Part shown: positions 11,334 through 46,832 of the stretch, one piece after another
Layout of the letters: the number at the start of each line of letters is the position of its first letter
Position numbering within the stretch: position 1 is the stretch's first letter
Assembly (NCBI GenBank): GCA_036924835.1
Contig: JBAGRR010000001.1
Location: forward strand, 4,603,001-4,667,000
Direction of reading: 5' to 3'
DNA: 64,000 nt
Origin: Nitrobacteraceae bacterium AZCC 1564
GTDB lineage: Bacteria; Pseudomonadota; Alphaproteobacteria; Rhizobiales; Xanthobacteraceae
Position numbers and translations under genes: made by a program
The notes under the pieces: generated by a model
What the model was told of the DNA's origin: nothing
Seen by the model: only the letters and a program-made list of their open reading frames with translations
Databases searched by the model: none

Positions 11334-11340
11334 TCTTGAA

Positions 11341-19632: not shown

Positions 19633-19657
19633 GGATAGCCGCAATGATGTGTGGAAA

Positions 19658-19687
19658 CGAGGCGCCGAAGGGCGCCTCGATTTTCTT
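19658..19687 (+). terminator. Terminator of the beta-helix/RTX exoprotein gene
   Basis: Stem CGAGGCGCC / GGCGCCTCG (19658-19666 with 19671-19679), loop GAAG, followed by ATTTTCTTT. Confidence 0.85.
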
Positions 19688-19721
19688 TGTCAGAGGACTG
19701 TTACAATTCTGATTTATGTCA

Positions 19722-19886
19722 CTAGTGTCCCGAATCCGAAGTTCGCCTCATAGTGCGGCGCACCTCGTAGCGAACTTCGGATTCGAAAGGACACTAGAAA
19801 CTTACGATTCTAGTGTGGTTGAGGTTCAGAAGTTCGCTTGAAGGACTCGCGGAGAAAATGAAGCGAACTTCTGAAGCACCACACTT
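19722..19886 (+). repeat. Composite A-B palindromic repeat, forward
   Basis: Type A at 19722-19797 and type B at 19810-19886, separated by AAACTTACGATT. Apart from a few changes (CACTTG at the right end) it matches the unit at 1470-1636. It separates the exoprotein gene from its transporter genes. Confidence 0.9.
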
Positions 19887-19984
19887 GGCCATCGGCATGA
19901 GTTCTCGTGCCATTGCGTTTATTGAGTCTCGCCCGGCGTGCTGCGTGTGCAATGTCGTCAGGCCCTTTTGTGTGTGGCCACGCC

Positions 19985-24484: not shown

Positions 24485-27400
24485 ATGAACGGACCTTTCC
24501 AGGTTGCGCAGGCGAATATTGCGACTCAAACCTCGGGCAAACCTCCAGCACGCATCGTCAAAGTTACAAAGCCGTTCGGCGAGCAATCAGTGGTCGTGCC
24601 GCTGAGCTACGACGGAAGCGTCAAAGCTGATCTCTCATCCATCGCCGGCGAGAACATCACGCTGGTGCACATCGGCGAGAAGCTCATCATCCTGTTCGAC
24701 AACAAGTCGACGGTCACGCTCGAGCCCTTCTTCGACTCAAATGGCGCGCCGCTGAATGGAATCACGGTCGAGGTTTCGCCGGGCCGCGATCTGACCGGCA
24801 CCGAATTCGCCGCGCTCTTTCCCGTCACTGAAGACCGTTCGATCCTGCCGGCAGCAGGCGACGGCAATGGCCCCGGCGCGCAGGCTTCGGGTGCGAACTT
24901 CACCAGCGTCAATGTTGATCCGCTCGCTGCGCCCAATCCGATCGATTTGCTCGGTCAGGAAGATCTGCCGACGTTCGCCATCAACACGATTCTGCGGCAG
25001 AACGACTTCATCAACGGCATTCCGTCCGCCGGGCTAACGGGCGTCATCGCGCTGGACGAAGATGAACTTCCAGGTGTGTTCGGCAATCCGAACGGACCGG
25101 GCGATATCGATGCTCCACACACCTTCAGTGGCACGCTGACGCACGATTTCGGTTTGGATCTCGCCGGCGACATCACTTTCGCTGCGATGAACGGCGTGCA
25201 ACAGGTGATCAACGGCATCACCGTGACTTTTACCTGGAATGACGCGACTCACACGCTGACCGCGAACGACGGCAGCGGTGATGTGTTCGAGGTCGTCATC
25301 ACCAATCCGGCGACCGGCGCCTACACCGTGACGCTGCTCGGTCCGCTGCATCACCACGCTGATGGGTTGGCCGACAACGCTGAAACAAGTGACATCTTCA
25401 ACCTCACCTATACGGTGACGGATTCCAATGGCACCACGGCGAATGGAACGCTGGCGCTCGAAATCAACGACGATACGCCGGTTGCGCACGATAGCGCGCC
25501 GACCGACACCACGGTTGTCATTGGCGAAGGCGAGGGACAGGAAGGCGGAAACGGCGAAGTCGTCACGCATTATGCGACGATCGATGACGAAGCCCAGTCT
25601 GGCAACACTGGCGATGACACCAACGGCGACGATGCCGGTGAATCCTCATCCGTTTCGGGCAAGCTCGACATTGCACCAGGCGCCGACGGCCTCAAGGCCG
25701 TTGCGTTCACGGGCCTCGATGGGCAGCCGCATGTGACGGTGACCGCTGATGACGGTTCGCATCCGACACTTCAGGTGATCTTCGTCGATCCGCAGACCGG
25801 CATCGGTACGCCGGAGAACGTCACGCTTGTCTGGCAGGCCGACGGCAATGGCGGCGGCACGCTGATCGGTGTCAGCGATCACTTCTCGGCCAACAATCCG
25901 GCGTTCACGCTGACCGTGGATTCCCAGGGCAACTACACGTTCGACGTCCATGCGCCGTTCGCGCAGCCGCTGACGACCGACGGCTCCGAAGGCAGCTCCC
26001 AGATCGGCTGGGAAGACAACATCCACGTCCAGTTCACCTACACGGCGACGGATGGCGACGGTGACAAGTCGTCCGCGACGCTGACCTTCGACATCGATGA
26101 CGATACGCCGACTGTCGTCGTCACCACCGATGAGCGGGGTGAAGGACAAGAGGGCAAATCGCTGCTCGTGTCGCTCGACGAATCGATCGGCGGCGACCGC
26201 GGTTCGCTGCAATCGCCGACTGACGGCGCGAGCGACGACACTGGCAACACGCAACCTGATCCGACCGGTACCAATCCGATCGGCAGAATGGAAACTGCAG
26301 CGGGCGAGGGTGAAAACGCTGGTGGCCTTCAGTCGCTGTTTAATGTCATTAAGAGCCCTGGCGCAGATGGCGAGAAGTCGACGACCTATAGCTACACGTT
26401 CAGCCTGACTGGCACCGGTAATGGCGGTGAAGGCGAAGGACAAAATACCGGCGTTGAGACTAGTCTCAAAGCAACGGGCTACGAAAACGGCACCATTTAT
26501 CTGTTCCAGGAAGACGCCACGCACATCGTCGGCCGCGTCGGCGGCGAAAATGGCGATATCGCCATCCGCATCACGCTGACGGATGCGAACGATCTGTCCG
26601 GTGGCCAGCTTGTGGTCGAGCAGTATCTTGCGATCGACCACGGCGAGGACGGCAACGACTTCGATACGACGAAATTGCTTGAACTGGTCGGCGAAGGCGC
26701 AAGCCTCGGCGTGACGCTGACGACCACCGTCACCGATGGTGATGGCGACCAGGCGACGGCTTCCGCCACGTACACTTTGGCTGACGGCCAGTCCTCGACC
26801 ATTGGCTTCCAGGATGACGGCCCGGCGCCGCTGGCGATCTCGGCAGCAAACGGTGCGGCCAACGGCCTGTTCTTCGAGGGCTTCGCGCCGAACAACGATC
26901 AGTGGGGCGCCGGCAGCGGCATCAACACCAGTGGCACTGCCGGGGCATGGCACATTGCGGCTTCGTCTCATGACGGTGCGTCGAACGTACAGCTCGAGCG
27001 CGTGGGTGACGGATACCGCGGTGCGGACAGCCCGACCGACGGCGTCATGGTCGACATGGAAGCGACCCCCGGCAACCTGAAGCTGACGCAGGACATCGGC
27101 GGCCTCACTGAGGGTAGCGTCTATCACCTGACGTTCGAGATCGGTGCGGCAAATGACGCGGCAGCCGGCAGCGCGAAGCTTGCCGTGTTCTGGAACGGCG
27201 TTCAGGTCGGCGAATACACGCCGAACTCGGGCGTGATGCAGACCATCTCGATCGATGTCACCGCGGGCAATGGCAACAACCAGCTAACCTTTGAGGAAAT
27301 CGGCACGTCCGGCGACAACACCGGCACCTTCCTCGCCAACGTCAAGCTTGCCGATGCCATCATCATCGACGAGACGAGCGGCAATGATCCTGGCAGCAAT

Positions 27401-30400
27401 GACACGGATTCCGCCGCGGTCGCTGCGCTGTTCGCGTCCGTGGCCGATACCGGCATCGATCCCAATATGGATCACCCGCAATATGCGCAAGGACAGCATC
27501 CGGTCATCGTGCTCGGCACGCCGGACTACGGCACCGATGGTCCTGCCGCTACGAATCCGATTCAAGTTGGGCTGGCCGTCTCGTCCGCAGGCGTGGATTC
27601 CGGCCTGACAACGACTGAAGGCCAACACATCTATCTGTTCGTTGAGAACGGCCTCATCGTCGGCCGTTTCGACGCTGATGGCGACGCCAATCACACGCCG
27701 GAGACCGCGGCCTTTGCGCTGAGCATCGACCAGAGCGGCAACCTGTCGATCGCGCAGTACGTATCGCTGCATCAGCCCGATACGGGCAGCCACGATGAAG
27801 GCGTTTACCTGAATCCCGGCACTGTGCTCGCGACCGTCACGCTGACTGACGGCGACGGCGATCACACCACGAGCAGCGCGGATATTTCGAGCGCTATCCG
27901 CTTCGAGGATGACGGTCCGTCGATCGATGCTGCTCAGAACAGCTCGCTGCGCGACTGGACGTTGGATGAAGATGTTCTGCCAACCGGCAATGACGCGTTC
28001 GACAATCCAGCAGACACCAATGATTACACCGCGATCAACGGCAAGCCGCTCGGCGTCAACTGGGGCGCGGACGGCGCGAAGGCGCTGACCTTCGCTGCGA
28101 CGGATGATCAGCATCCGACCATCGTGGTCACCGACAAGAACGGCGCACCGGTTACGGACGGCCTGTCATCGGGCGGCGTTGCGCTGACCTACGAGATCAC
28201 AACGAATCCCGACGGCGGCCAGACGCTGACCGCCTACAAGGGCGGCGATCATTCAAAGGTGATCTTCACGCTGACACTCGACCCGGATGCGGGCTCATCG
28301 GGCACGTTCTCCTTCGAACTGAAGGGGCCGCTCGACCATCCGACGGGCGATGGCGAGAACACCCTCAATCTGAATTTTGGTTTCACCGCAACGGACGGCG
28401 ATAACGATACAGCTTCGTCATCGGTCACGATCCGCATCACCGATGACGTTCCGGTGGTGGCCTCGAACGGAACCAACTACATCACCAATGGTGACTTCCA
28501 GGCCGGAAACTGGAGTGCACCGGCCTGGTGGGGATCCGCTGCCACCAATGTGCCCGGCTGGTCGATCTCGGGCGATCCGAGCCTGCCGCCGCAGAACGGC
28601 ATCCAGTTCGAGCGCCCGTTGGATGGTTACCTCGGGCTGCACTCGTCCACCCATGACGGCATGATCGACATGGGCGGCTCGCCCGGCAATTACGATCTGA
28701 CCCAGCAGATCGGTGCGAACGGGACGCCTCATCTCGTCAACGGCCAGCAATACGTGCTCGAACTCGAAGTCGGCGCGCCGTTCCCGTCCACTGCGAAGAT
28801 GGAAGTGTGGTGGAACAACACTCTCATCGGCGTCATCGACACCAACGTGTCGAGCGGCCAGATGGAGAAGTTTGCCTTCATCGTCACCGGTAGCGGCAAT
28901 CCGGCGACTGACCAGTTGACGTTCAAGGAAGTCGGCGAGGGCACTGCGCCTATCAATGGCACTGTGAACGGTCAGCCTCTGCAGGGCGAAAGCTACCACG
29001 GCACCTACATTGCGAACGTGAAGATGTTCGCGCTGAACGGCGTCGTCGATGAAGACGCGCTGAACAACGCTCATGCCCACGGCATCGGCGATTCACAGCC
29101 CGGTGACGGGCCAGATGGCAATGCCGTCGCTGGTAACGTGACCATTGGCGGCACGCTTGGCGTAAAGTGGGGCTCCGACGAGACCGACGTCGATGATGTC
29201 AACGGGATTCAGGACGGTGCCGGCAGCACGCTGACTGGCCGCAGCCTGACCTTCACCGACGCGAATGTCACTGTGTTCGGCGTCAACACGCTGACCTCCA
29301 ATGGCGACGCGGTCAGCTTCGCGCGCATCGGCAACAACACCAAACTGGTTGGCTTCGTCGACAACGATCACAACGGCACCTACAGCAACGGTGACCGTCT
29401 CGTGTTCGACGTGACGCTGTCGGACGACGGTTCGGGTTCGTTCAAGTTCACGCTGCACGACAACCTCGACCATGCACCCGGCGCATCCGAGAATGACATC
29501 GCGCTGCAGTTCAATTTCACCGCGACGGATTCCGATGGCGACAGCGCCAAGGGAACCTTTGCTGTCGGCGTCGACGACGACCTGCCGGTGTTGGTCAACG
29601 GCGGCGAGGTCTCGGTCTCGGTCAACGAGAACGATATCCTGACCCCGTGGTCGGTCGGGACCAGTCCAAACATTTTCGACGGCAGCACAGAGCTTTTCAC
29701 CGGAGCGGCCAAGGTCACCGGCACGCTCGCTGCTGCTGTTAAATTTGGTGCTGACGGCGCTGGCCATGGCGGCTTTGCCTTTGCCGATAAGGCAACCGTC
29801 ATTGCCTACATGGAAAGCCTGCACCTGTTCTCCAAGGAGACGGCGCTTCCAGAGAACGGCAAGGAGCTGACCTATGATCTGGTCGGCAACGTTCTGATCG
29901 CGACGGAGCCCGGCCCAGACGGCAATATCGTCTTCACGCTGACGCTGAATTCGAACGGCTCGTTCGAATTCCGTCTGTTCGACGAACTCGTCCATGTGGC
30001 GGGTGACGGTACGAACACGGATCTGCGGTCCGGCGATTCAAGCTCGATCTCAGGCATCGAGTTCGGCCATATCATCGTTGCCACCGATGGCGATGGCGAC
30101 TCCGTCACGCTGGGCGATAACTTCGAGATCAAGATTGTCGACGACGTTCCGCAAGTGTCGATTTCAAGGACACTGCTCGGCGCCGTGCAGCACGACGAAA
30201 CGCCTGGTGTCGATCTTGTTTTCGATAGCGATACCAACAGTGCAGCGGTGAAAGCACTCTTCACTGGCGTCGTGAATCCGGGCGACGATCTCAACGTGGA
30301 TGGATCGGGAGCCATCGGCTACGCGCACAGCTCGCTTCCGCTCGTCAACGTCGGGGTGAATTATGGGGCCGACACGCCGGCCCTATCGCAGACCCTGTCG

Positions 30401-33400
30401 CTTCAACTGATCGACGGGAATACCGGCAAGCCGGCAGCCGAAGGCTTCCAGCGCGATTCCGGTCTGTTCACGACGGAGCACCAGAAGATCATCCTTTCGA
30501 AAGAAGGCGATCTGATCGTTGGCCGTGTTGATGCCGATGGGAACGGACACGTTGATCAGAACGACGTCGCCGCATTCGCGATCCACATCGGGCAGGATGG
30601 CGACGTCAGCATCGTGCAATATCTGTCGCTGCAGCATCCCAATACGTCGTCCAGCGATGAGAACGTGGACCTGAACGGCTTGATCGCCGCGCAAGTCAGC
30701 GTCACGGATTCCGATGGCGATACTGCAACGGATTTCGTCAACATCGGCGACAAGATCCGTTTCGGTGACGATGGCCCGCAGGCTGTCAATGATAGCCAGA
30801 AGACCGTCACGGAGGGCGCGTCTGCGATCGGCGGAAACGTCATGACCAATGACGACGCCAGCGCCGACGGGGCGACGGTGACGATGGTTCGTGTCGATGG
30901 ACACAACTATTCCGTTCCGCAGGATGGTTCGGCAACGACCGTGACGACATCGCTCGGTGTCTATACGTTCGACAACCATGGCAACTGGACGTTCACACCG
31001 AATGGCAATCTGAACAATGCCAACGGGGTCGACGCGTCGTTCACCTATACATTGACTGATGGCGACGGCGATGCCGACACTGCGAAGCAGACCATCAAGG
31101 TCAACGATGGCGCGAATCCAACTGTCAGCAGCAACATCACCATCACGCTGGATGAAGAGGCGCTTGGCAATGCCAACGCCACAGGGACGAATCCGTCCAG
31201 CACGGCCGAGCAGGACAGCAGCCATACGCTGACCTTCACGTCGGGCTCGGACAACATCAAGTCGATCGCGTTTGCTGCCGGAACGAATGGCATCACCGTC
31301 AACGTGGACGGCATCAACGGTGCCGATATCGTCTGGACGCGCGTCGACGGTACGCACCTGATCGGAAAAATCGGCGGGGTCGATGCGATCAGCGTCGAAC
31401 TTACTCTCCCGGGTCTGCCGATTCTCGCTGGCGGTCACACCGGAGACGTAACCGTCACTGCGACGCTGCTCGACAATTTCCCGCATCCAAAGGGGGGTGG
31501 CGAAAACACGATCACGCTCAGCGGAATCAAGGTCGTTGCCACCGATACGGATAACGACACCGTCACCGGAAACGTCAACGTCACCATCAACGATGACGTG
31601 CCGGCGGCCACGGCGGAAGCCTCGCAGAATGTTGTGGAAGGCGGGTTGGCGCAGGGCCAGCTGGACTTCGTGGGCGGTGCGGACGGCGCGACCGTCACGC
31701 ACATCGGCAACGTGAAGCTGATCTTCGGGAATGACGGCTTCTCGCAGTCTGTCGACATTGGAGCCGGCACCATCAAGGTGAAGTCGGATGGATCCTATGT
31801 GTTCACCGCGGATGCTTCGGTGAACAACACCAATGGCGACGTGCCGGTCCATACAACCTTCACTGTGACCGATCGCGACGGCGATACGTCCACGGCGAAC
31901 ATCGATTTTGCCGTGACCGACACCGGAATCGCGAGCGTCTCGGCCTCCAACGCAGCCGCGGACGAAGACGATATTCCGGTGATCGGCAATAACAATGATC
32001 CGGCCGCAGGCGACGACGTCACCAGTGCGTCCGGCCATATCTCCTACACGCTCGGCGCCGACGCCGTGAAATCGGTCGAACTGTCCGCCAACACGACGGG
32101 CCTGATCAAGCTCGATGGCACCCCCATCCACACGGCATGGGATCAGCAGACGCATACGCTGATCGGCTACGGCACCGACATCAACGACATCGTGTTCAAG
32201 ATCGTCGTCACGGATGTGAACAACACTGGCGCGAACTATGAGGTCACGCTGGTTCAGCCGATCCTGCATCCGGATTACACCGATCCATCGAACCCTGCTT
32301 CGACCTCCTACGAGGACAACAAAGGCTTCACCGTCACCGTCACGGTGACGGATGCCGACGACAGCCAGAACACGGCGACCTTTACCGTCAGCATCGACGA
32401 CGACAGCCCGGTCATTCTGTCGCCGGAGGATGGCTCAACCAGCGAGGTGAATATCGCCGCGGCCACGGCTGTCGCGCATGGTTCGCTGGGCATTCACTTC
32501 GGCGCGGACGGTCCGGCCGCGCCTGCGGCCCCGTCGAGCGGCGGCACACCGCGCACCATCAACTTTGACGATGCCCATAACGGTACGCTGCCCGGCAATC
32601 AGTACACTCACGACGGCTTTACCTTCCATACCAACCAGGGCATCGCAAACGCGACCGGGACCGCCGGCCAGATGTATGGCACCGTGATTACGGTTGCGGA
32701 CAATGGCGGCCAGCCGTTTACGATCACTCAGATGGATTTGGGCCTGTACGGCACAAGCACCGGCGCTCCGGCCGATAACGTGCGCCTGACCGGCGTCGAT
32801 GCGAACACCGGCGAGACAATCGTCGTGATCTTCAACGTCGGTACGACGATCAGCCTTGGCGGTGCGGGAACCACATTCCATGCAGCCGGCACTGATTTCG
32901 AAGGTGTTTCGCTGTCCTCGCTTACGATCGAGCCTGTGCTCGGTTGGCAGGGCAACTATATCTTCAATGGCTCGGTCGTCGTCGATAACGTCGTATTCAG
33001 CAGCGGCAGCGCGCCGCTGACTCATGGCGCCGTGTCCTTCGCCGATCTCACGACAGCGATCAACAACGTCACGATCGTGGACAGCGATCATCATGCCGTT
33101 GCACCTGCATCGCTGACCTCGCATGGCGAGACGATCCACTACGCGTTGCTCGATTCCATGACGCTGGTGGGCTACACGGGCGACACGGCCCCGACCGCGA
33201 TCGACGGCACGAACGTCGTATTCTCGGTCGTGCTGTCGCAGGATGCCAACCATCCGAACGGTGCCTATGACTTCACGCTGCGGCAGCCGCTGGACGATCT
33301 TCCGTCAGGTGTCTCGGACCTGAACTTCACCTTCGACTTCACCGCCAAGGATGGCGACGGCGACGCGGTCAATGGCCACTTCTCCATCGATGTGAAGGAC

Positions 33401-36400
33401 GATGTGCCAACGATTGTGCACGATGCCGTGGTCGGCGGCGCTGTCGATGAAGATGCGTTGACTGTCGCCTCCATCGGGAATGCCGATGATCAGCGCTCTG
33501 GTGAAACCGCGGGAATTGGTTCCGCTTCCGCGACAGTGTCCGGCGAGGCAAATTCGCTGAACGCGCTTGTTCATTTCGGCGCGGATGGTCCCGGCGTCAT
33601 TCAGCTCGCATCGCAGGCCGATGCAAAGAGCTGGATTGTTGGCCTCGATCTGTGGTCACAGGGTCACAAGATCGACAACGTGATGATTTCCGGTCACACC
33701 CTCACGGCTCTTGCTGACGACGGGCGTAGTGTGTTCTCGCTCCTCATCAATGATGATGGATCGTGGAAATTCACGCTGATTGATCAAATCGATCATCCGG
33801 TGACGAACGATCCGGAAACGCCTCTGGAAGAAAAGGCGTTCGAAGACACGATCTCGCTCGATCTCAGCGGCCTGCTGGTCGCGACCGACGGCGATGGCGA
33901 TCCCACGCCGCTCGCAGGGGCGAATTTCGAGATTACGGTTCGTGACGATATTCCGTATTTTGATGCCGTTGCGCCTGTGACCGTGACGGATGTTGGCGAA
34001 CTTGTCACGGGAACATCCGGCTTCCATGTCGGGGCGGACGAGCCGGGACAGCTCAGTGTCACGGCCCCCGAGATTGACGGCGTGAGCGTAACGAGCTCGA
34101 CCGATGATGACGGCGTCATCACGGTGACGGGAACGTTCTCGGACAGCGGCAAGGTCTATTATGTGCTGTCGGTGAATCCGGACGGCACATATCAATTTGA
34201 AATCGAGAATTTGCCGTCGGTAGAAAAGCCGGTCGCGGAAGTCGATCTCAGCGCTGGATTTGGACCTATCCCGTCAAAGGATTTCGGCGCCTTCACGATC
34301 AGCGCCAATAACGGTCATAACATCAATGGATCGGGCGGAGGTGTTGGCGTCGATAATGCCAACTCTGACGGTAGCGAGGGTCTGACGATCAAGTTCGACC
34401 ATCAAATGACGGTGGCGGACCTCGGCCTCAAGTTTATGGGCAATGAGGATATTACGCTGCAGTGGAAAGCATATAGCAGCACTGACCCCTCGCATTTCGA
34501 AACCGGCACGAAGACGTTCCATGCCCATGCGGACGGGAGCCTGACAGTCGATATCGTCGATCACGATGGCGGGACGACCAATATTCCGAATTTTGATACG
34601 CTTGAGATCACAGGTGTTACAGGAAAGGTTAAAATCTCTTCGGTTGGCGGAACGGAGATCGTTGAAGACCAGCATCCGACTTCGTTCGACTTCGGCCTGA
34701 CCGGAACGGACAAGGACGGCGACGCGGCTTCGGGGGCGATTCATATCAATTACCAGCCGGACCTTCTGCCATCCGTGACCGCGCCTCCGATCTCGGTGGA
34801 CGAAAAGGGCCTTCCGCCGCACGGTGCCGGGCTGCCTGCCGGCAGCGGCGAGATGGCCAACGGCAACGCAAACGACAACAGCGATCAAAGCGAAAGGCAT
34901 TCGGGAACGATCACGATCGAGCCCGGTGACGGGCCATCGGTCGTGACGATCAACGGGGTGACCGTCTTGGCTGCCGGTCAGGATATCAGTGGCACCTATG
35001 GCACGCTGCACATCGACAGCGTGACGCCGACATCGATCAGCTACACTTACACGCTGACCAAGAATGGGTCGGGCGATGCCGCGCACGATGACTTCGCCAT
35101 CAAGGTAACGGATTCCGATGGCGACCCGGCGACGACGACGCTCTCAATCAGTATCGTGGACGACGTGCCAGCGGCCACAGCTGAGGGCCTGCAAACCGTC
35201 GCGGAAGGCGCGTCTATTCAAGGCAAGTTGGATTTCGTGGCCGGAGCCGACGGCGCCACCGTCACGCACATCAACGGTGTGGAACTGCACTTCGGCCAAG
35301 GCAATGGCTACTCGCAGTCGGTCGACATCGGAGCCGGCACCATCAAGGTGAAGGCGGATGGATCCTATATCTTCACTGCGGGCGCCTCCGTGGACAACAC
35401 CCACGGCGACGTGCCGGTCCATGCAACCTTTACTGTGACCGATGGTGACGACGACACGTCGACGGCAGACGTCGATTTTGCCGTGACCGACGCGAACGTT
35501 CCGGAGGGCGGCACATCCAAGGCCACGGTGGACGACGATGGTCTGACCGGCGGTAATGGGGAAAGCACGGTAGGTGACGCCAGCGACAGCAATGCCGATG
35601 GCGACAACAATGAAGCGACGTTTGCGGGAACGCTCGCGGGCGCTACGGGCGCTGATGTCCCGGGTACGTTCGACTTCGCCAGCCTCGATGGAGCACAGGG
35701 CACTGTCGGCCAGGAGTCTGTGAAGTACAGCTGGGCTGGCAACACGCTGACTGCGATGGTGTCCGGTGGCGACCGCAATGGCACGCCACTGTTCTCGGTG
35801 GAGGTGGATCCGACAACCGGCGCCTATCAAGTGACGCTGCTGCACAATATTCTGCACAGTGCAGGCGATAACGCAGAAGCCGGCGACATCACCGTGAGCT
35901 TGCCTTACACGATCACGGACAGCGACGGTTCGCATACCACTGGCACGTTGCAAATTACGTTCGACGATGATGCGCCGACGGCTCATGCCGGCAACGCGGT
36001 GTCCATCGACGAAACAGCCGGCGTCATGATCGGCGACAACCTGCTGTCGGGCGACAGCAATGGCGTCGGCAAGGATGCGTTGGGTGCGGACGGCGCGACC
36101 GTGACGCACGTCAAACTGCCGGGCTCCAGCCAGTTCGAAGAGATCTCGACCTGGGCCTCGGATGGCCATGGCGGCCACACCAAGGATGTGGCTGGTGTCG
36201 GCGTGTATACGTTCAATGCCGATGGTTCGTGGACATTCGATCCGCACAGCAATGCCTCGAATGCGAATATCGATGGCTCGTTCAGCTATCGCATCACTGA
36301 CGGCGATGGTGATACGTCGGAGGCGACGCAGACTGTCACGGTTGTCAACACGAACTCGCTGCCGACCGCGGGCGAGGCGACCGCCAGCATCGACGACGAC

Positions 36401-39400
36401 GGCCTGCAGCACGGTAACCCCGGTGACGCGGACAATGGCGACGTCGCCCTTCCATCTCCGGAGAATGTCGCGAACGGTACGTTGCCGCACGACTATCAGG
36501 CGGACGGCAAGGCCAGCTCCGATCCGATCGGCTTCGCGCCGATGGACGGTCAGCATGGAACGGTCGGCACGGAGAGCGTGACCTATCATTGGGATGCGAC
36601 TAGCAATACGCTTACCGCAACGTCCGACGCGGGCCGCGGTGACATCTTCAAGATCGTGGTTGACGACACGACCAACGACGGCATCGACAACGGAACTGAC
36701 AGCGGAAACGGCAACTATCAGCTTACCCTGCTTCAGCCGGTCATGCATGACGACGGTGACGGCGAGAACAATGCCACTGTCGAGCTGACCTACCAGGTGA
36801 AGGACTCATCCGACGACACGGCTGAGGGTAAACTGACGGTCACGTTCAACGACGACACACCGGTGGCGCATGATCAGACGGCTAGCGTGACGGAGGGCAG
36901 CACGCCAACGCTGAACGCCATTCTGGTCATCGATCTGTCGGCGAGCATGAATGACAGCTCCGGTGTCCAGGGGCTGACGCGCCTCGAGCTGATGCAGCAG
37001 GCTGTTGCGAACTACCTGAACAGCTCGGGCGTGCACTTCAACGAGATCGTGATCTATACCTTCAATGATGGCGCCCATTACGAAGGCACGTTCACCAACG
37101 TGCAGGACGCCATCAACAAGGTGAACAGCTACGACTCGAACGATCTTGTCGCCGCGACCGAATACGATTCGACGGCCGAGGACGTGCGCGAGCACTTTGA
37201 GGACAACGTTCACCTCACAGAAGCGGACCAGACCCATCTGCTGTTCCTCAGCGACGGTGACCCGACCGGAGGCTCTGCGCTCAACACACAAACGGAGCAG
37301 AACAACTGGCGTGACTTCCTCAATGACGCCGGTGTCGACAAGGTCTTTGCGGTCGGCTTCGGTGGCATTGACGACACGAGCTTCCTGAACCCGATGGCGC
37401 CTCGACCGGGCGACGAAGCGATTGCGGTTGAGAACCCCGATCAGCTCGCGGCGACCCTGGAAGGATCTCTGCCGAGTTCAATCTCCGGAAATGTTCTGTT
37501 CGGACAGGATGGCGTTGCCGGCGGAGGCGACGATGTCTCCTTCGGCGCGGACGGTGGCCACATCCATTCGATCAAGGTCGGCGACGTCACTTATACTTAC
37601 CATCCGGAGACTGGCGACATCACGGCCAGCGACGGACATAATCCAGTGCAGAATACGCCGGAGCTGACGGTGACCACGGCGCTCGGTGGTGCGCTTGAGT
37701 TCAACTTCCAGACCGGTGCGTGGGAATACAGCGCTCCGCCCAATGGCGTCAGCCAAACGACTAACGAGAACTTCGACTACGTAATCGTCGACGGTGACGG
37801 CGACACCGCCGACGCCACGTTGACCGTCACCGTGGTCGATGTGCCCAACCAGCCGCCAGTGCTGCACCTGAACGAGCCTGGCGAGAGCGGAAATGTCTCC
37901 GACAATTTCTCGTCGTCCGGATATGGCGGCGGCTCGGGCTGGAGCGGATCATGGGTTGAAAGCAGCGACGGCGGCGGCAGCAACGGTGGCGCATCGAGCG
38001 GTGACATCCGCCTCAGCGGCAGCGGCAGCAACGGGCGTCTTCGCTTTGGCGATGACAACGATAACAATGATGGTTCTGCCGGCGGCGCGACGATCACGCG
38101 TGATGTCGATCTGACCAATGCAGTCTCGGCCAAGCTGACCTTTAGTGTCGTTCAAGACGACGCTAATACTGGAGAAGACCTTATTATCGAGGCCTGGAAC
38201 GGCACGACATGGCAGGAAATCGGCCGAGTGCTCGGAAGCGCCAGCAATGGCACAACGAACTTCGATATCGATCTCACCGCAGCGCAGATGGGGCCCGACT
38301 CCAGCATCCGCTTCCGTATGGAGACGGGACTCGAGGAGGACGAATTCTATTACATCGACAACGTGAACGTCGCGTACACGACCGTCACGCCGTCTGTGGA
38401 TCACGTTGCGAGCTTCACCGAGAATGGCGACGCGATCTCGATCGCTCCGGCAGGACCGACGATCACCGATACCGACGACACCGTCATGGAATCGGCGAAG
38501 ATCGTTCTGACCAACGCCAAGGCCGGTGATGTTCTCGCGGTCGGCGGCTTGCCCGCCGGAATTGGCTATACCATCGACACTTCGGTGGCCGGCCAGATCA
38601 CAGTGAACCTGTCGGGCAATGCATCGCTCGCCAGCTATCAGGCGGCGATCAAGGCCGTGACCTACCAAAACACGTCAGATAATCCGGGATCGGATGATCG
38701 CGTGATCCATGTGACGGTCACGGACGATCACGGCAACGCCTCCAACGTTGCGACCACGACCGTTCACGTGACGCCAATCAACGATGCACCGACGACGAAC
38801 GATGTGTCGGTGTCCGCGAACGAAGGCGTGAGCTCGATTGCCATCTCTCTGACCGGCGGTGATGTCGACGGGACGGTCAGCTCGTTCAAGATCACCGGAC
38901 TGCCATCGGGAGGCACGCTCTACAGCGATGCAGCCCTCACGCAGGTGATCGCAAACGGCGATACGGTTTCGGCCTCGGGTAACTCGGCGACCGTCTACTT
39001 CAAGCCGGCGTCGGACGATGCAAACGGCACAATGACGTTCAAGTATGCCGCCGTCGATAACGACGGCACAGCAGATGGCTCACCGGCGACGGCGACCATC
39101 AACATCACGCCGGTGAACGATGCGCCGGAGGGGGCCGACAAGACGTTCGCTCTGTCCATTGGCGGCAGCAAGACGTTTACGGCGAGTGATTTCGGCTTCT
39201 CGGACACGCACGACAGTCCGGCGAATGCGCCGAAGTCGGTGATCATCACGACCCTGCCGGGTGAGGGCAGGCTGACGCTCAACGGCATTGCCGTCACCGC
39301 CGGTCAGGAAATTACCGCCGACAAGATCGGAGGTCTCAAGTTTACGGCGATTGGAAGTGAGGTCGGCGAGAACTACGCGTCGTTCACATTCCAGGTGAGG

Positions 39401-40774
39401 GATAACGGCGGTACCGCCAATGGCGGCGTCGACACCGACCAGACGCCGAACACCATCACGTTCGACATCCCTACACCGCCGGTCATTTGGGCGCCGAGCG
39501 ATTTCAACTTCGCGCCGGCTTCAACCAATAACTCGGACATGTTCACGAAGTTGAACCTGCTCAAGTTCTCGGATGCTGGCTCGACCGGGCCTGTCACAGT
39601 GAAGTTGGAAACAGACGACGGTGCAGCCCGCTTCCTCGCAACAAGCAGTTCGGACGTCACCGTGTCTGGCAACAACACGACATCGATGACGCTGACGGGG
39701 ACCCTTGCGGCGATAAATGCCTTCATCGCCGACAATCACCTCACTTACGATCTGAACAACAGCTCGGGGGACGAGATCACCGTTACGATCACCGACAGTC
39801 GCGGAGCGACCGATACCGCAACGATCGATATCAACGACAACTACATCGGTGGTGGTAACGGCCAAAACCTTCCGTCCGCGGACACCTTCAATATCCATCA
39901 AGCACTGATTGATCTCGGTGGCGGCAGCGACTCCATCACGACAGGCTGGAATCATCTCGCGACCGATCCAACGACTTATCGTGGTGGAGAAAGCGGCGGC
40001 AACGATACGATACGTGTGGTGTTCACTGGCGATCAGCTGAATGAAATTCTCAACAACGTCACCCAGCGTGACGATCTTCGGGACTTCCTCAGCAATCCAG
40101 ACGCCCACGATCTCGATCTGAGTAGCTCGTCGTGGCACGCCAAGGTGGAGCAGTTTGAGGTCGCTAACCTCGGTCTCGCAACGCCGCATCCGACCGGAAG
40201 TCAGGATAACTATCTCGATCTCGCCACCTGGAAGGCGCTTCCGGCGGCCGTTGGAAGCGGTACGAGTGGTGCGGACCTCATGGTCGGCACGGCAGCTGGT
40301 CAGACGCTGGACGGCCTTGATGGCAACGATGTGCTTGCTGCGTATCACGGCGGCGCCAACACGCTAAACGGCGGTGGAGGTAAAGATCTTCTCCTCGGTG
40401 GCGATGGTGATGACGTGCTGAATGGTGGTCAGGGCAATGACACCCTTTCCGGCGGCAAGGGTGCTGACATGTTCAGGATCGACGCCGTTGGTACCTCTCA
40501 TCAGGATACGATCGTCGACTACGACTTCACCCAGGGCGACAAGCTCGATCTCTCTGCCTTGCTGGATAGTGCTTTCGACCCCGGCGACAACATCAATTCC
40601 TTCGTTAAGGTGCAGGTCTCAGGTGATGATCTGCTCGTCAGAGTGAATGCGTCAGGCAATGGCAACTTCACTGATGCGCAGAATGCCTTCTTGCTTGTCG
40701 GTGCCCACACGAGTGGTGGTGGCGATCCCATCAAGCTCTACTTTGATGGCCACGATCACGTGGTGACCGGCTAA
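24485..40774 (+). CDS. Giant LapA-like adhesin (5429 aa), type I secretion substrate
   Basis: GAGG precedes ATG 24485. Residues about 20-120 form an N-terminal beta domain (SVVVPLSYDGSVKADLSSIA) ending at Pro122-Ala-Ala-Gly125, a fit to the di-alanine site cut by LapG proteases. Most of the protein is a tandem array of VCBS/T1SS-143-type beta domains, each with a DGDGD-type Asp-rich segment. Jelly-roll-like, possibly sugar-binding modules interrupt it (about 795-960, 1330-1520, 2690-2840, 3255-3395 and 4470-4635). A vWA domain (about 4144-4333) shows the DLSAS metal site (Asp4150) and Asp4257 in SDGD. The C-terminus has RTX repeats (GGDGDDVLNGGQGNDTLSGG) and a type I export signal domain (GADMFRI ... 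DYDFTQGDKLDLS). There is no Sec signal. A LapG-type protease and a LapBCE-type exporter lie just downstream. Codon usage matches the neighbours. Confidence 0.92.
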   Translation: MNGPFQVAQANIATQTSGKPPARIVKVTKPFGEQSVVVPLSYDGSVKADLSSIAGENITLVHIGEKLIILFDNKSTVTLEPFFDSNGAPLNGITVEVSPGRDLTGTEFAALFPVTEDRSILPAAGDGNGPGAQASGANFTSVNVDPLAAPNPIDLLGQEDLPTFAINTILRQNDFINGIPSAGLTGVIALDEDELPGVFGNPNGPGDIDAPHTFSGTLTHDFGLDLAGDITFAAMNGVQQVINGITVTFTWNDATHTLTANDGSGDVFEVVITNPATGAYTVTLLGPLHHHADGLADNAETSDIFNLTYTVTDSNGTTANGTLALEINDDTPVAHDSAPTDTTVVIGEGEGQEGGNGEVVTHYATIDDEAQSGNTGDDTNGDDAGESSSVSGKLDIAPGADGLKAVAFTGLDGQPHVTVTADDGSHPTLQVIFVDPQTGIGTPENVTLVWQADGNGGGTLIGVSDHFSANNPAFTLTVDSQGNYTFDVHAPFAQPLTTDGSEGSSQIGWEDNIHVQFTYTATDGDGDKSSATLTFDIDDDTPTVVVTTDERGEGQEGKSLLVSLDESIGGDRGSLQSPTDGASDDTGNTQPDPTGTNPIGRMETAAGEGENAGGLQSLFNVIKSPGADGEKSTTYSYTFSLTGTGNGGEGEGQNTGVETSLKATGYENGTIYLFQEDATHIVGRVGGENGDIAIRITLTDANDLSGGQLVVEQYLAIDHGEDGNDFDTTKLLELVGEGASLGVTLTTTVTDGDGDQATASATYTLADGQSSTIGFQDDGPAPLAISAANGAANGLFFEGFAPNNDQWGAGSGINTSGTAGAWHIAASSHDGASNVQLERVGDGYRGADSPTDGVMVDMEATPGNLKLTQDIGGLTEGSVYHLTFEIGAANDAAAGSAKLAVFWNGVQVGEYTPNSGVMQTISIDVTAGNGNNQLTFEEIGTSGDNTGTFLANVKLADAIIIDETSGNDPGSNDTDSAAVAALFASVADTGIDPNMDHPQYAQGQHPVIVLGTPDYGTDGPAATNPIQVGLAVSSAGVDSGLTTTEGQHIYLFVENGLIVGRFDADGDANHTPETAAFALSIDQSGNLSIAQYVSLHQPDTGSHDEGVYLNPGTVLATVTLTDGDGDHTTSSADISSAIRFEDDGPSIDAAQNSSLRDWTLDEDVLPTGNDAFDNPADTNDYTAINGKPLGVNWGADGAKALTFAATDDQHPTIVVTDKNGAPVTDGLSSGGVALTYEITTNPDGGQTLTAYKGGDHSKVIFTLTLDPDAGSSGTFSFELKGPLDHPTGDGENTLNLNFGFTATDGDNDTASSSVTIRITDDVPVVASNGTNYITNGDFQAGNWSAPAWWGSAATNVPGWSISGDPSLPPQNGIQFERPLDGYLGLHSSTHDGMIDMGGSPGNYDLTQQIGANGTPHLVNGQQYVLELEVGAPFPSTAKMEVWWNNTLIGVIDTNVSSGQMEKFAFIVTGSGNPATDQLTFKEVGEGTAPINGTVNGQPLQGESYHGTYIANVKMFALNGVVDEDALNNAHAHGIGDSQPGDGPDGNAVAGNVTIGGTLGVKWGSDETDVDDVNGIQDGAGSTLTGRSLTFTDANVTVFGVNTLTSNGDAVSFARIGNNTKLVGFVDNDHNGTYSNGDRLVFDVTLSDDGSGSFKFTLHDNLDHAPGASENDIALQFNFTATDSDGDSAKGTFAVGVDDDLPVLVNGGEVSVSVNENDILTPWSVGTSPNIFDGSTELFTGAAKVTGTLAAAVKFGADGAGHGGFAFADKATVIAYMESLHLFSKETALPENGKELTYDLVGNVLIATEPGPDGNIVFTLTLNSNGSFEFRLFDELVHVAGDGTNTDLRSGDSSSISGIEFGHIIVATDGDGDSVTLGDNFEIKIVDDVPQVSISRTLLGAVQHDETPGVDLVFDSDTNSAAVKALFTGVVNPGDDLNVDGSGAIGYAHSSLPLVNVGVNYGADTPALSQTLSLQLIDGNTGKPAAEGFQRDSGLFTTEHQKIILSKEGDLIVGRVDADGNGHVDQNDVAAFAIHIGQDGDVSIVQYLSLQHPNTSSSDENVDLNGLIAAQVSVTDSDGDTATDFVNIGDKIRFGDDGPQAVNDSQKTVTEGASAIGGNVMTNDDASADGATVTMVRVDGHNYSVPQDGSATTVTTSLGVYTFDNHGNWTFTPNGNLNNANGVDASFTYTLTDGDGDADTAKQTIKVNDGANPTVSSNITITLDEEALGNANATGTNPSSTAEQDSSHTLTFTSGSDNIKSIAFAAGTNGITVNVDGINGADIVWTRVDGTHLIGKIGGVDAISVELTLPGLPILAGGHTGDVTVTATLLDNFPHPKGGGENTITLSGIKVVATDTDNDTVTGNVNVTINDDVPAATAEASQNVVEGGLAQGQLDFVGGADGATVTHIGNVKLIFGNDGFSQSVDIGAGTIKVKSDGSYVFTADASVNNTNGDVPVHTTFTVTDRDGDTSTANIDFAVTDTGIASVSASNAAADEDDIPVIGNNNDPAAGDDVTSASGHISYTLGADAVKSVELSANTTGLIKLDGTPIHTAWDQQTHTLIGYGTDINDIVFKIVVTDVNNTGANYEVTLVQPILHPDYTDPSNPASTSYEDNKGFTVTVTVTDADDSQNTATFTVSIDDDSPVILSPEDGSTSEVNIAAATAVAHGSLGIHFGADGPAAPAAPSSGGTPRTINFDDAHNGTLPGNQYTHDGFTFHTNQGIANATGTAGQMYGTVITVADNGGQPFTITQMDLGLYGTSTGAPADNVRLTGVDANTGETIVVIFNVGTTISLGGAGTTFHAAGTDFEGVSLSSLTIEPVLGWQGNYIFNGSVVVDNVVFSSGSAPLTHGAVSFADLTTAINNVTIVDSDHHAVAPASLTSHGETIHYALLDSMTLVGYTGDTAPTAIDGTNVVFSVVLSQDANHPNGAYDFTLRQPLDDLPSGVSDLNFTFDFTAKDGDGDAVNGHFSIDVKDDVPTIVHDAVVGGAVDEDALTVASIGNADDQRSGETAGIGSASATVSGEANSLNALVHFGADGPGVIQLASQADAKSWIVGLDLWSQGHKIDNVMISGHTLTALADDGRSVFSLLINDDGSWKFTLIDQIDHPVTNDPETPLEEKAFEDTISLDLSGLLVATDGDGDPTPLAGANFEITVRDDIPYFDAVAPVTVTDVGELVTGTSGFHVGADEPGQLSVTAPEIDGVSVTSSTDDDGVITVTGTFSDSGKVYYVLSVNPDGTYQFEIENLPSVEKPVAEVDLSAGFGPIPSKDFGAFTISANNGHNINGSGGGVGVDNANSDGSEGLTIKFDHQMTVADLGLKFMGNEDITLQWKAYSSTDPSHFETGTKTFHAHADGSLTVDIVDHDGGTTNIPNFDTLEITGVTGKVKISSVGGTEIVEDQHPTSFDFGLTGTDKDGDAASGAIHINYQPDLLPSVTAPPISVDEKGLPPHGAGLPAGSGEMANGNANDNSDQSERHSGTITIEPGDGPSVVTINGVTVLAAGQDISGTYGTLHIDSVTPTSISYTYTLTKNGSGDAAHDDFAIKVTDSDGDPATTTLSISIVDDVPAATAEGLQTVAEGASIQGKLDFVAGADGATVTHINGVELHFGQGNGYSQSVDIGAGTIKVKADGSYIFTAGASVDNTHGDVPVHATFTVTDGDDDTSTADVDFAVTDANVPEGGTSKATVDDDGLTGGNGESTVGDASDSNADGDNNEATFAGTLAGATGADVPGTFDFASLDGAQGTVGQESVKYSWAGNTLTAMVSGGDRNGTPLFSVEVDPTTGAYQVTLLHNILHSAGDNAEAGDITVSLPYTITDSDGSHTTGTLQITFDDDAPTAHAGNAVSIDETAGVMIGDNLLSGDSNGVGKDALGADGATVTHVKLPGSSQFEEISTWASDGHGGHTKDVAGVGVYTFNADGSWTFDPHSNASNANIDGSFSYRITDGDGDTSEATQTVTVVNTNSLPTAGEATASIDDDGLQHGNPGDADNGDVALPSPENVANGTLPHDYQADGKASSDPIGFAPMDGQHGTVGTESVTYHWDATSNTLTATSDAGRGDIFKIVVDDTTNDGIDNGTDSGNGNYQLTLLQPVMHDDGDGENNATVELTYQVKDSSDDTAEGKLTVTFNDDTPVAHDQTASVTEGSTPTLNAILVIDLSASMNDSSGVQGLTRLELMQQAVANYLNSSGVHFNEIVIYTFNDGAHYEGTFTNVQDAINKVNSYDSNDLVAATEYDSTAEDVREHFEDNVHLTEADQTHLLFLSDGDPTGGSALNTQTEQNNWRDFLNDAGVDKVFAVGFGGIDDTSFLNPMAPRPGDEAIAVENPDQLAATLEGSLPSSISGNVLFGQDGVAGGGDDVSFGADGGHIHSIKVGDVTYTYHPETGDITASDGHNPVQNTPELTVTTALGGALEFNFQTGAWEYSAPPNGVSQTTNENFDYVIVDGDGDTADATLTVTVVDVPNQPPVLHLNEPGESGNVSDNFSSSGYGGGSGWSGSWVESSDGGGSNGGASSGDIRLSGSGSNGRLRFGDDNDNNDGSAGGATITRDVDLTNAVSAKLTFSVVQDDANTGEDLIIEAWNGTTWQEIGRVLGSASNGTTNFDIDLTAAQMGPDSSIRFRMETGLEEDEFYYIDNVNVAYTTVTPSVDHVASFTENGDAISIAPAGPTITDTDDTVMESAKIVLTNAKAGDVLAVGGLPAGIGYTIDTSVAGQITVNLSGNASLASYQAAIKAVTYQNTSDNPGSDDRVIHVTVTDDHGNASNVATTTVHVTPINDAPTTNDVSVSANEGVSSIAISLTGGDVDGTVSSFKITGLPSGGTLYSDAALTQVIANGDTVSASGNSATVYFKPASDDANGTMTFKYAAVDNDGTADGSPATATINITPVNDAPEGADKTFALSIGGSKTFTASDFGFSDTHDSPANAPKSVIITTLPGEGRLTLNGIAVTAGQEITADKIGGLKFTAIGSEVGENYASFTFQVRDNGGTANGGVDTDQTPNTITFDIPTPPVIWAPSDFNFAPASTNNSDMFTKLNLLKFSDAGSTGPVTVKLETDDGAARFLATSSSDVTVSGNNTTSMTLTGTLAAINAFIADNHLTYDLNNSSGDEITVTITDSRGATDTATIDINDNYIGGGNGQNLPSADTFNIHQALIDLGGGSDSITTGWNHLATDPTTYRGGESGGNDTIRVVFTGDQLNEILNNVTQRDDLRDFLSNPDAHDLDLSSSSWHAKVEQFEVANLGLATPHPTGSQDNYLDLATWKALPAAVGSGTSGADLMVGTAAGQTLDGLDGNDVLAAYHGGANTLNGGGGKDLLLGGDGDDVLNGGQGNDTLSGGKGADMFRIDAVGTSHQDTIVDYDFTQGDKLDLSALLDSAFDPGDNINSFVKVQVSGDDLLVRVNASGNGNFTDAQNAFLLVGAHTSGGGDPIKLYFDGHDHVVTG

Positions 40775-40795
40775 AGCCGGAAGACACCAATATCA

Positions 40796-40832
40796 AAAGC
40801 CCGCCGGATCGTCTCCGGCGGGCTTTGTCTTT
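40796..40832 (+). terminator. Terminator of the giant adhesin gene
   Basis: A 13-bp stem AAAGCCCGCCGGA / TCCGGCGGGCTTT (40796-40808 with 40814-40826), a 5-base loop, then TGTCTTT. It lies between convergent genes. Confidence 0.88.
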
Positions 40833-40905
40833 AAGGCGTGGTCAAACCGCAAACCCGGCCGCCGCGGATTCCGGCACAGCTGCCTTTGAACGCGTATTTA
40901 CGTGA

Positions 40906-41364
40906 TCAGATGTCCCGCCATGGCGATCCGCTGACGAGGATCTTGATGCGCTGCGTTTCAGCGCGGCCCTTCGGATATCTCACTTCGATCGTCACTACGT
41001 CCACACCCATAAAATCCGGTTTGGAGCGATAGAACGCCACAAAGCCGGGCACTTCCAGTGCAAGGCAGTGTTTGTAGTTTGTGCCGGTGACCCGTCCGCG
41101 CTTGATACTCACTGCTCCGCTCATAGGCTTGTCGACCAGGCGAAGCGCGGGCAGAGGGCCCGACGTGCAATCCGGCTCGATGTTGATGTAGACTCCGATG
41201 CGGATGTCTTTCCCAGGCCGTCCCTTGGCAATGCGTTCTACAACCTGCTGGGCGACGGCACCGGTGCTGATGCCTGCAAGCAGCATGCAAACTGTCAGGC
41301 AGCGTGCGGCAAACGTGATCCATGCGCGTCGCGGCCGTGCAGAAAGCTGACCCGTCGCTGCCAT
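40906..41364 (-). CDS. Exported hypothetical protein beside giant adhesin
   Basis: 152 residues from ATG 41362-41364, which has GGAGGCCGCGCG just upstream. The frame stays open to 41499, but those residues are atypical. An N-terminal signal peptide (TFAARCLTVCMLLAGISTGA, then VAQ) leads into a beta-rich domain (RIGVYINIEPDCTSGPLPAL ... GVDVVTIEVRYPKGRAETQR). The IEPDC...PALRLVDKP and HCLALEVPGF segments suggest an Ig-like periplasmic fold with two cysteines. I do not recognise the family. It is convergent with the adhesin and upstream in orientation of the LapG-like gene, so a link to adhesin handling is possible but only by position. Confidence 0.7.
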   Translation of the reverse strand: MAATGQLSARPRRAWITFAARCLTVCMLLAGISTGAVAQQVVERIAKGRPGKDIRIGVYINIEPDCTSGPLPALRLVDKPMSGAVSIKRGRVTGTNYKHCLALEVPGFVAFYRSKPDFMGVDVVTIEVRYPKGRAETQRIKILVSGSPWRDI

Positions 41365-41592
41365 CGCGCGGCCTCCTCTATGACTTAGAGTTTTGACGCG
41401 TTTTCTTGACGCGAACCGGTCGCCACTTCGCTCGAAAACGCTCCAGATCAATGACTTCAAAAAAATGCGTGGTCGTAAGATCGAATTGAAACATAGCACG
41501 GCGTGGCGCGCCTGACATCAGGACAGCGTCGCGCGCTTCTGCGACCTGGGGTCGGCTATCGAGGATAGGCGACGCAAAAGGAAAAGAGCCTG

Positions 41593-41616
41593 CTGTGGTG
41601 GTTCAGAAGTTCGCGC
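41593..41616 (-). repeat. Half of a type B repeat
   Basis: CTGTGGTGGTTCAGAAGTTC then GCGC equals one end of an inverted type B copy. It abuts the stop codon of the LapG-like gene at 41617-41619. Confidence 0.75.
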
Positions 41617-42702
41617 TTACATGAGCACCGGCAGCGATGACGCGCCGGAGCTCAGGCTGACAGTATTCTCCGGGGTGGCGAATTCGGTGTTCTCGATGCC
41701 GGCAGACTGTAGGGATACAGCACTTGCATCGGCGCCGACGCTGTTCGCCGCAGGTGCAACCGCCTTGCTATCGTCCTGTGTCCGCTGGCCCAGGTAGGGC
41801 GAAGCAAACATGTTCACGCCGCTCTGGTCGAGTTCGACCAATGGCGTGAAATGCTGCAATTCGCTGTCCATCGAGAGTGCAGCATAACGGTTGTCGAGCA
41901 CTGTCCAAACGCCATCGAGCCGCACCGCAAGCACGGCATGGTCTTCACGCACGGCGCGATCGCGCACCAGGAGCACACGCAGATCTTGTTCGGCAACGCC
42001 GGCTTCACGCAGCAGCACATACTTGGCAATCGCGTAATCTTCGCAATCGCCACGGCCGCTGCCGAGCGAGGCCAGCGGCGAGGACCAGACGTCGATCGCG
42101 GCATGTTGAACGAGATCGCGCGTATAGCGGATCGCGGTGTTGATCAGCCGGTTAGCGGCTTCAACGCGCGCTTTGCCTTCGCGGCCGCGCACGTCATCCA
42201 CCATCAAGGTAAATCGTCGCGCGGCTTCGCTGCATGTGGCGTTATCGTTCTTGCAGTTCGCAGCTTCGCGCAGGTCCGCTGCGATGTCGCCCTGCACAGA
42301 GCGCCATTTCCGCCACAGCACGCCTTCGGGCGCGCGGAACGTGAACAGGCCGAACGGCTCGTTCGTTGTGGTGGGACGCTCCACGGTGATCGCATCGCCC
42401 GGCGCATCAGACACGACATCGTCGCTGGTGATGGAAGCGAGACGAACCGTCGGCATCGGCGGCGTCTTGCCGTCGAGCTTGGCCAGAACGCTGTTGATCG
42501 AAAAGAATTTTGCGCCGTTCGTCTGCGCACGCACGGGTTCGGGCGCAAGCGGCACCATCATTGACGGCGTGATCAGATCGTCAAAGATGTATTTCCTCGG
42601 CTTGGCCTTTGCCGCAGCCTCGGTCGGCATCGCGCTACCCGCGATCAATGTGAGGCACGCAATTGCCCCGATGACGCAAAGCGCCCGTGAAACAAACGAC
42701 AT
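41617..42702 (-). CDS. LapG-type periplasmic cysteine protease (BTLCP family)
   Basis: 361 residues. The signal peptide spans about 1-30 (FVSRALCVIGAIACLTLIAG, then SAMPTEA). A long linker of low similarity precedes the transglutaminase-like cysteine protease core (about 125-300). Cys220 in GRGDCEDYA, His255 in VREDHAVLAV and Asp270 in WTVLDN form the expected triad. The pattern KWRSVQGDI and SPLASLGSGRGDCEDYAIAK is typical of the family. LapG proteases act in the periplasm, cutting the N-terminus of a LapA-type adhesin after a di-alanine and so releasing it from the cell surface; LapD holds LapG back when c-di-GMP is high. The adjacent 5429-residue adhesin has a fitting PAAG site. The C-terminal 60 residues look disordered. 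It is larger than Pseudomonas LapG because of the N- and C-terminal extensions. Confidence 0.9.
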   Translation of the reverse strand: MSFVSRALCVIGAIACLTLIAGSAMPTEAAAKAKPRKYIFDDLITPSMMVPLAPEPVRAQTNGAKFFSINSVLAKLDGKTPPMPTVRLASITSDDVVSDAPGDAITVERPTTTNEPFGLFTFRAPEGVLWRKWRSVQGDIAADLREAANCKNDNATCSEAARRFTLMVDDVRGREGKARVEAANRLINTAIRYTRDLVQHAAIDVWSSPLASLGSGRGDCEDYAIAKYVLLREAGVAEQDLRVLLVRDRAVREDHAVLAVRLDGVWTVLDNRYAALSMDSELQHFTPLVELDQSGVNMFASPYLGQRTQDDSKAVAPAANSVGADASAVSLQSAGIENTEFATPENTVSLSSGASSLPVLM

Positions 42703-43105: not shown

Positions 43106-43109
43106 CTAG
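42943..43109 (-). repeat. Composite B-A palindromic repeat, inverted
   Basis: Type B at 42943-43021 and type A at 43034-43109, reverse orientation, spacer AATCATAGGTTG. The right terminal CTAG provides the TAG stop codon of the HlyD-family gene that ends at 43106. Confidence 0.92.
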
Positions 43110-46661: not shown

Positions 46662-46791
46662 TGGGGCACGCCCTAGCCAACAATTTTACTCAAATACACA
46701 CATAGCGCAGCGCAATGAGCCGCAGCATGAAACCGTTTGGTAATACTAATGTGGATCGCGGAACCGCAACAAAAGCGGCTCCGCGTCATGT

Positions 46792-46814
46792 GCCGCGCCG
46801 ACTGCCGGCGCGGC
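46792..46814 (-). terminator. Possible hairpin after the TolC-like gene
   Basis: GCCGCGCCG / CGGCGCGGC with a short loop lies 19 bases beyond the stop of the TolC-like gene. It is very GC-rich but has no T-run on the minus strand, so its role as a terminator is weakly supported. Confidence 0.3.
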
Positions 46815-46832
46815 TATTAAGGTAAATGCGTG

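Follow-up and report, generated by a model that had tools for sequence, protein, structure and literature searches.

How might a giant surface adhesin be let go by a cell in which the receptor that usually governs such release is not detected? This question is raised by a locus in a 64,000-nucleotide stretch of the genome of Nitrobacteraceae bacterium AZCC 1564, which was analysed as a whole and is called the window below (G000:C1:4603001-4667000; the genome is 5.99 Mb, one contig and 99.99% complete). The adhesin gene is co-located here with a gene for a BTLCP protease and with a complete type I secretion set. LapG-type release is known above all as a process governed by LapD, a receptor of cyclic diguanylate (c-di-GMP), and a version in which LapD is not detected raises the question of how the protease would be gated. 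In our view the best explanation of the locus, with a probability of about 0.8, is a LapA/LapG-like release by cleavage between Ala123 and Ala124 of the adhesin, with a lineage-specific N-terminal module and no LapD-family receptor. A preliminary description of this DNA had proposed a LapA/LapG-type release system with a candidate cleavage site. The release reading and the site are upheld by co-occurrence, linkage, conservation and one natural loss, whereas the full identity with LapA/LapG is not.

The open reading frame (ORF) of the adhesin, 5429 residues long as previously described, occupies 24485-40774 on the plus strand. Pro122-Ala-Ala-Gly125 was indeed present at bases 24848-24859, and PAAG is an exact fit to the [T/A/P]AAG of the published LapG consensus, which the available part of PMC13090378 gives as a targeting helix, a DP motif and [T/A/P]AAG cleaved between the alanines. 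In Vibrio cholerae FrhA, LapG cuts a PAAG site and not PRRG (available part of PMC6890996). The distance to the N-terminus is close to that in LapA, as had been claimed: the site starts at residue 122 here, and at residues 105-124, counted from a script-chosen Met, in the 23 of 26 canonical retention_LapA loci in which it was found by pattern (in one locus, L243, the alignment points instead to SAAG at 108). The motif in one sequence is nevertheless weak evidence, because [TAP]AA[GV] occurs seven times in the adhesin and appears at positions 90-140 in 1.8% of trials when the first 200 residues are shuffled.

Conservation among relatives was more informative. The loci examined contained 96 profile matches to the module, 79 of them distinct, and all site tallies refer to these 79, leaving out a broken module in genome G733 and 80 named loci. 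The site reads PAAG in 69 modules, TAAG in 1, PAAD in 7, PA-D in 1 and PATG in 1, so that the consensus [T/P]AAG is present in 70. The seven PAAD modules (L345, L347, L348, L349, L355, L037 and L360) all come from genome group g25, apparently Bradyrhizobium. Asp117, Ala123 and Phe139 are conserved in all modules, Ala124 in 97% and Gly125 in 90%, against 13-53% for the linker positions 126-134. Because the Ala-Ala pair is retained in the relatives (77/79), the site is far beyond chance. The proposed scissile pair Ala123-Ala124 (24851-24856, plus strand) stands near the end of the conserved run-up EFAALFPVTEDRSILPAAG (residues 107-125; 24803-24859, plus strand), which contains D117 (79/79). Downstream of a Gly/Ala-rich linker follows SGANF (residues 135-139; 24887-24901, plus strand) with F139 (79/79). 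On visual inspection, most canonical sites, too, precede a Gly-rich linker whose last residue is Phe, as the linker of the window protein ends in SGANF. DP precedes 18 of the 23 canonical sites and is missing from the other 5.

The distribution of module and protease was then compared in 391 genomes of the family. BTLCP proteins were split by a profile of 17 linked proteases into type 1, with at least 321 bits, and the rest, with at most 285 bits. Type-1 BTLCP was found in 75 genomes and the module in 73, the broken G733 module being counted. Both occurred in 72 genomes, the module only in 1 (G096), the protease only in 3 (G090, G845 and, with one internal stop, G827) and neither in 315, which gave a Fisher p of 7e-74 with shared ancestry ignored. 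Linkage was close: with a single module copy counted in each genome, the 55 pairs on a shared contig were all at most 30 kb apart, and 17 pairs were split over contigs. In a first sample of 149 family genomes, all 32 module genomes had some BTLCP, which lay within 25 kb of the adhesin frame in 28, was absent from the adhesin contig in 3 and was only distant in G096. A class-wide sample of 289 genomes gave a match of the module profile to the window's own genome only. The module locus was seen in Bradyrhizobium, Afipia, Tardiphaga and relatives, the best-scoring named loci being mostly from Afipia and unclassified Hyphomicrobiales, which makes an Afipia-like relative of Bradyrhizobium the likely source of the window. 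Several genomes carry extra module copies.

Genome G096 retains the module but has a PATG site and no type-1 protease. Beyond its adhesin lie relatives of HlyD (65.4% identity) and of the ATP-binding cassette (ABC) transporter (58.7% identity, cut by the edge of the region examined there). This is one case of natural loss in the expected direction. As a separate observation, the module region of G733 (G733:C1:259649-261433), of the same genus, is broken by two stops in the first match, and the type-1 protease frame there is open. A LapG-type release system is thus favored because module and protease co-occur and are linked, the site is conserved, and it reads PATG in G096, which has no type-1 protease.

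The protease ORF beside the adhesin (41617-42702, minus strand, 361 residues) was verified as a BTLCP by Pfam Peptidase_C93 (59 bits, cut-off 27), and its hydrophobic N-terminus looks like a signal peptide by eye. Cys220 (42043-42045), which stands in GDCEDY between acidic neighbours, His255 (41938-41940) and Asp270 (41893-41895) lie within 41893-42051 on the minus strand. These three residues had been noted from the letters, and they do not vary among the 17 linked proteases of the alignment, window protease included. The solved chain 4u65_E aligns at Cys, His and Asp, and 4fgo_A at the first two of these; both chains we take to be LapG proteins. Asp219 and Glu221, which flank Cys220, are invariant in the same 17 proteases. 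In DvhG, mutation of the corresponding acidic pair, described as calcium-binding, abolished activity (available part of PMC13090378). The score against the LapG equivalog NF045674 was 72.5 bits, under the cut-off of 320.

The preliminary description had stated that LapD is not in the window, and none was found there. The genome search it had suggested for a LapD-like partner was carried out by family search and by checking each of the 15 EAL matches against Pfam, and no such partner was found: none of the 15 EAL-match ORFs has HAMP or LapD_MoxY_N. The one LapD_MoxY_N match in the source genome (30.4 bits) lies in a HAMP-HisKA_3-HATPase kinase. Among the 32 module genomes tested (of 73), 14 have a LapD_MoxY_N match, of at most 32 bits, and the longest frame at each of the 17 loci concerned has a pattern resembling a kinase G-box but lacks an EAL signature. 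In a control with canonical modules (25 of 30 genomes with the module over cut-off), the best LapD_MoxY_N match reached 78-163 bits in 25/25 genomes, in frames of 638-904 residues identified by that match alone. Meanwhile, an EAL signature pattern that recovers 13/15 known EAL loci found nothing in the six frames of the window and of 23 module neighbourhoods (one flank, 13-19 kb each). A system without a LapD-family receptor would best explain these results. A published passage on Bradyrhizobium proteins would speak against this if they are the same proteins as those considered here. A missing LapD-type partner had been named beforehand as a point that would count against the proposal, and for the LapD half this is how the genome turned out. 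Because the protease scores 72.5 against a cut-off of 320 bits and no LapD-type partner was found, the locus falls short of a complete LapA/LapG system.

The N-terminal domain had been described as differing from the Pseudomonas retention module, and this holds, as no usable profile match was obtained. Adhesin residues 1-500 gave no match to NF033682, the LapA retention module, at E 0.001; the source genome has two NF033682 matches under the cut-off (best E 5e-5), given without their places. When the module was compared by HHalign with 23 canonical modules (3 of 26 loci having been dropped from that profile for lack of a readable module), the probability was 1.9 and the score 19.8 over 18 columns. 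As column shuffling reached 18.6 at best in 60 trials, only slightly less, homology to LapA retention modules is unsupported. The module core (residues 49-85; 24629-24739, plus strand) is the conserved part that aligns with BapA prefix-like domains. Against five BapA_N domains (PF22783), HHalign gave the module a probability of 57.6 and a score of 35.2 (81 columns), whereas 60 column shuffles did not exceed 19.5 and the reversed profile reached 13.2. The Pfam BapA_N model was matched weakly by 4/31 module members (best 4.8e-4) and not by the window protein. Because of the HHalign score of 35.2 against shuffles of at most 19.5 and of these four weak matches, it is probable that the anchor is a diverged domain of the BapA-prefix type that carries a LapG-type site.

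In the mechanism that we propose, the adhesin would be exported by the adjacent LssB-type ABC/HlyD/TolC system, as homology and linkage suggest, and its N-terminal module would stay in the periplasm as a plug, holding the adhesin. The neighbouring BTLCP would cleave Ala123|Ala124 directly after the module, a step to which the conserved site, the co-occurrence, the linkage and the catalytic residues point. The cut adhesin would then slip from the channel and be released. The protease might be switched by a non-homologous receptor, by its expression or by its own extensions.

Several observations weigh against this release reading. Kinship among the genomes inflates the independence assumed in the Fisher p-value, and the natural loss in G096 is a single case. 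Not every module copy has an adjacent protease, because in G108 a second copy (PAAG) and the sole type-1 protease of that genome are about 0.7 Mb apart. Two of the 79 modules are without Ala-Ala (G032 and G096), and G032 (PA-D) retains its protease; a group of seven reads PAAD instead of PAAG. D117 is kept in 79/79 modules, but the published DP motif is missing, with no Pro after D117 in the window protein. Besides, the weak LapD_MoxY_N match exceeds the curated cut-off of 25 in 13 of the 32 module genomes.

The protease is extended on both sides. Its N-terminal extension AKFFSINSVLAKLD (residues 64-77; 42472-42513, minus strand) contains F67, I69, V72 and L73, which all 17 linked proteases share. 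The segment ARFFTINxVLAKxD was matched as a strict pattern in 60 of 73 type-1 proteases and is not evident in five type-2 paralogues. In the C-terminal tail, Pro317-Ala-Ala (41746-41754, minus strand) resembles the adhesin site, and the protein ends in LPVLM (41620-41634, minus strand). PAA occurs in the tail of 48/72 type-1 proteins (shuffled mean 10.5, maximum 21) and in 44/68 distinct tails (shuffled mean 10.4, maximum 22); one of 73 distinct proteases, L401 with GDCEEY, was missed by the pattern used for these counts. PA plus a variable residue is placed 13 residues past a conserved PY in 44/68 distinct tails, a Pro-plus-hydrophobic terminus is present in 59/68 and LPLLM or LPLLL in 26/68, and tail PA[AS] was seen in 9/16 genera. 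HvyA-like BTLCP tails have PAA in 2/30, a weak control because they are shorter (about 22 residues where printed, against a mean of 48 in type 1). As a speculation, the likeness of the tail to the adhesin site could mark a decoy or a self-processing site. It is also conceivable, but improbable, that the protease regulates itself, with the tail as a decoy of the cleavage site, the hydrophobic LPLLM-type end and FFxINxVLA as a second control element jointly replacing LapD. If true, such a self-regulating protease would be a receptor-free adhesin-release switch.

Other ways of controlling the same cleavage deserve consideration. The protease might be held by an unlinked c-di-GMP receptor non-homologous to LapD, for which DvhD of Desulfovibrio (dCache plus HD-GYP) offers a precedent in the available part of PMC13090378; we place this somewhat below even odds. 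Among the 15 EAL matches of the genome, two ORFs seemingly have a periplasmic sensor. The receptor candidates are L137, with a dCache-PAS-GGDEF-EAL arrangement, and L141, in which two hydrophobic helices flank about 175 residues before PAS-GGDEF-EAL. However, both are unlinked to the adhesin cluster, and the six-frame scan of the window and the 23 neighbourhoods, which covered the EAL signature and not HD-GYP, found no EAL candidate nearby. A rather doubtful variant is a protease ungated by any receptor and active whenever it is made, so that the adhesin would be processed and shed under expression-level control, as with Caulobacter HvyA, which according to the available part of PMC4241560 is present in one cell-cycle phase only. 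That no LapD was found agrees with this, but the protease has conserved extensions, which hint at regulation or docking.

The cleavage itself can also be questioned, since the PAAG segment might be kept for module folding or secretion while the BTLCP has another target. D117 and F139 are conserved as strongly as Ala-Ala, G032 keeps its protease despite PA-D, and HvyA works on capsulation, its target being no known adhesin in the available part of PMC4241560. Yet the site is changed in the sole module genome without the protease, it fits the published LapG consensus exactly, and the linkage of module and protease is near-complete. We judge this explanation very unlikely, and prefer release of the adhesin by cleavage at Ala123-Ala124 without a LapD-family receptor.

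Behind the N-terminal module, the adhesin carries DUF5801/cadherin/Big repeats, a vWA domain (36920-37258, plus strand; VWA_2 27.3 bits against a cut-off of 27, marginal) and a C-terminal RTX region with a type I secretion target domain (RTX nonapeptide repeats and T1SS_VCA0849; 40349-40711, plus strand), and these matches support the RTX/vWA assignment made earlier. The secretion set (43106-48419, minus strand) consists of an HlyD-family adaptor (43106-44449, type_I_hlyD over cut-off), an LssB-type ABC transporter (44436-46661, TIGR03375 916.6 bits, cut-off 693.1) and a TolC-family outer-membrane channel (46833-48419, type_I_sec_TolC over cut-off). Between adhesin and protease lies an ORF of 197 residues (40906-41499) that matches neither Pfam nor NCBIfam; 1/23 module neighbourhoods, L106, has a relative (52.6% identity), which is adjacent to the cluster there too. 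A conserved neighbour gene was sought as a regulator, but none was generally recurrent beyond adhesin, BTLCP, HlyD, ABC and TolC. This survey comprised 23 module neighbourhoods among 30 loci, one flank each, with a simple ORF caller that masked some genes behind antisense frames.

Other BTLCP and RTX genes of the genome were also noted. A second RTX/cadherin protein (2378 residues) with its own ABC and HlyD genes occupies 12496-23076 of the window, and the latter are relatives of those beside a second BTLCP type. A weak BapA_N match lies inside this protein. It was rejected as part of the release system (12496-19632), its N-terminus being unlike the module. The second BTLCP type (5879-6718 in L117, G000:C1:308000-322000) stands beside a FecR-domain RTX protein (7258-11931) and a different ABC transporter, and similar pairs of BTLCP and large protein are present in L129-L132. 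The FecR region of five L117-type proteins matched LapA retention modules with an HHalign probability of 91.5, a value without shuffle control, and [TAP]AA[GV] occurs within the first 700 residues of 1/5 of these large proteins, at position 19. The L117-type pair might be a second release system, one of a LapA-module-like kind. The third BTLCP noted (L072, G000:C1:1207687-1208163; PF06035 230.6 bits) is more typical; it belongs to the high-scoring kind that all 32 module genomes have and is a possible HvyA counterpart.

Judged from sequence, the locus departs from the known LapA/LapG systems in its anchor domain, in having no detected LapD and in its extended protease. A literature search, made largely outside subscription papers and partly on top matches, gave no alphaproteobacterial report of this site, this module or a LapD-free arrangement. 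Such a release system may bear on plant-symbiont attachment. With LapA-LapG-LapD of P. fluorescens it shares a giant RTX adhesin, LssB-type secretion, a BTLCP protease and, at about residue 105-124, a di-alanine site behind an N-terminal domain. It differs in that no usable profile match connects the module with that of LapA, the protease falls under the LapG equivalog cut-off and has extra N- and C-terminal parts, and no LapD was found. The BapA prefix-like domain (BapA_N, PF22783) has a distant similarity to the module core. In the five BapA_N proteins, the domain is followed by a hydrophobic Gly/Ala-rich stretch in which, unlike in the window module, no PAAG-type site was seen by eye. Caulobacter HvyA is likewise an alphaproteobacterial periplasmic BTLCP, its control being described, in the available part of PMC4241560, by abundance and not by LapD; it restrains capsulation there, unlike the adhesin release proposed here. 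An HvyA-like BTLCP (PF06035 223-237 bits; named by score and length only) is a separate gene in 32/32 module genomes. DvhA-DvhG-DvhD of Desulfovibrio vulgaris shares the LapG-type protease, the [T/A/P]AAG site and the lack of LapD, and it indicates that the LapD receptor is replaceable (available part of PMC13090378). DvhD is encoded in the Dvh operon, whereas no such receptor was found linked to the window locus, HD-GYP not having been searched for. The authors of PMC13090378, in its available part, write that comparable systems may be present outside Desulfovibrio and have yet to be identified, and the window locus is a concrete candidate for one, with a named site.

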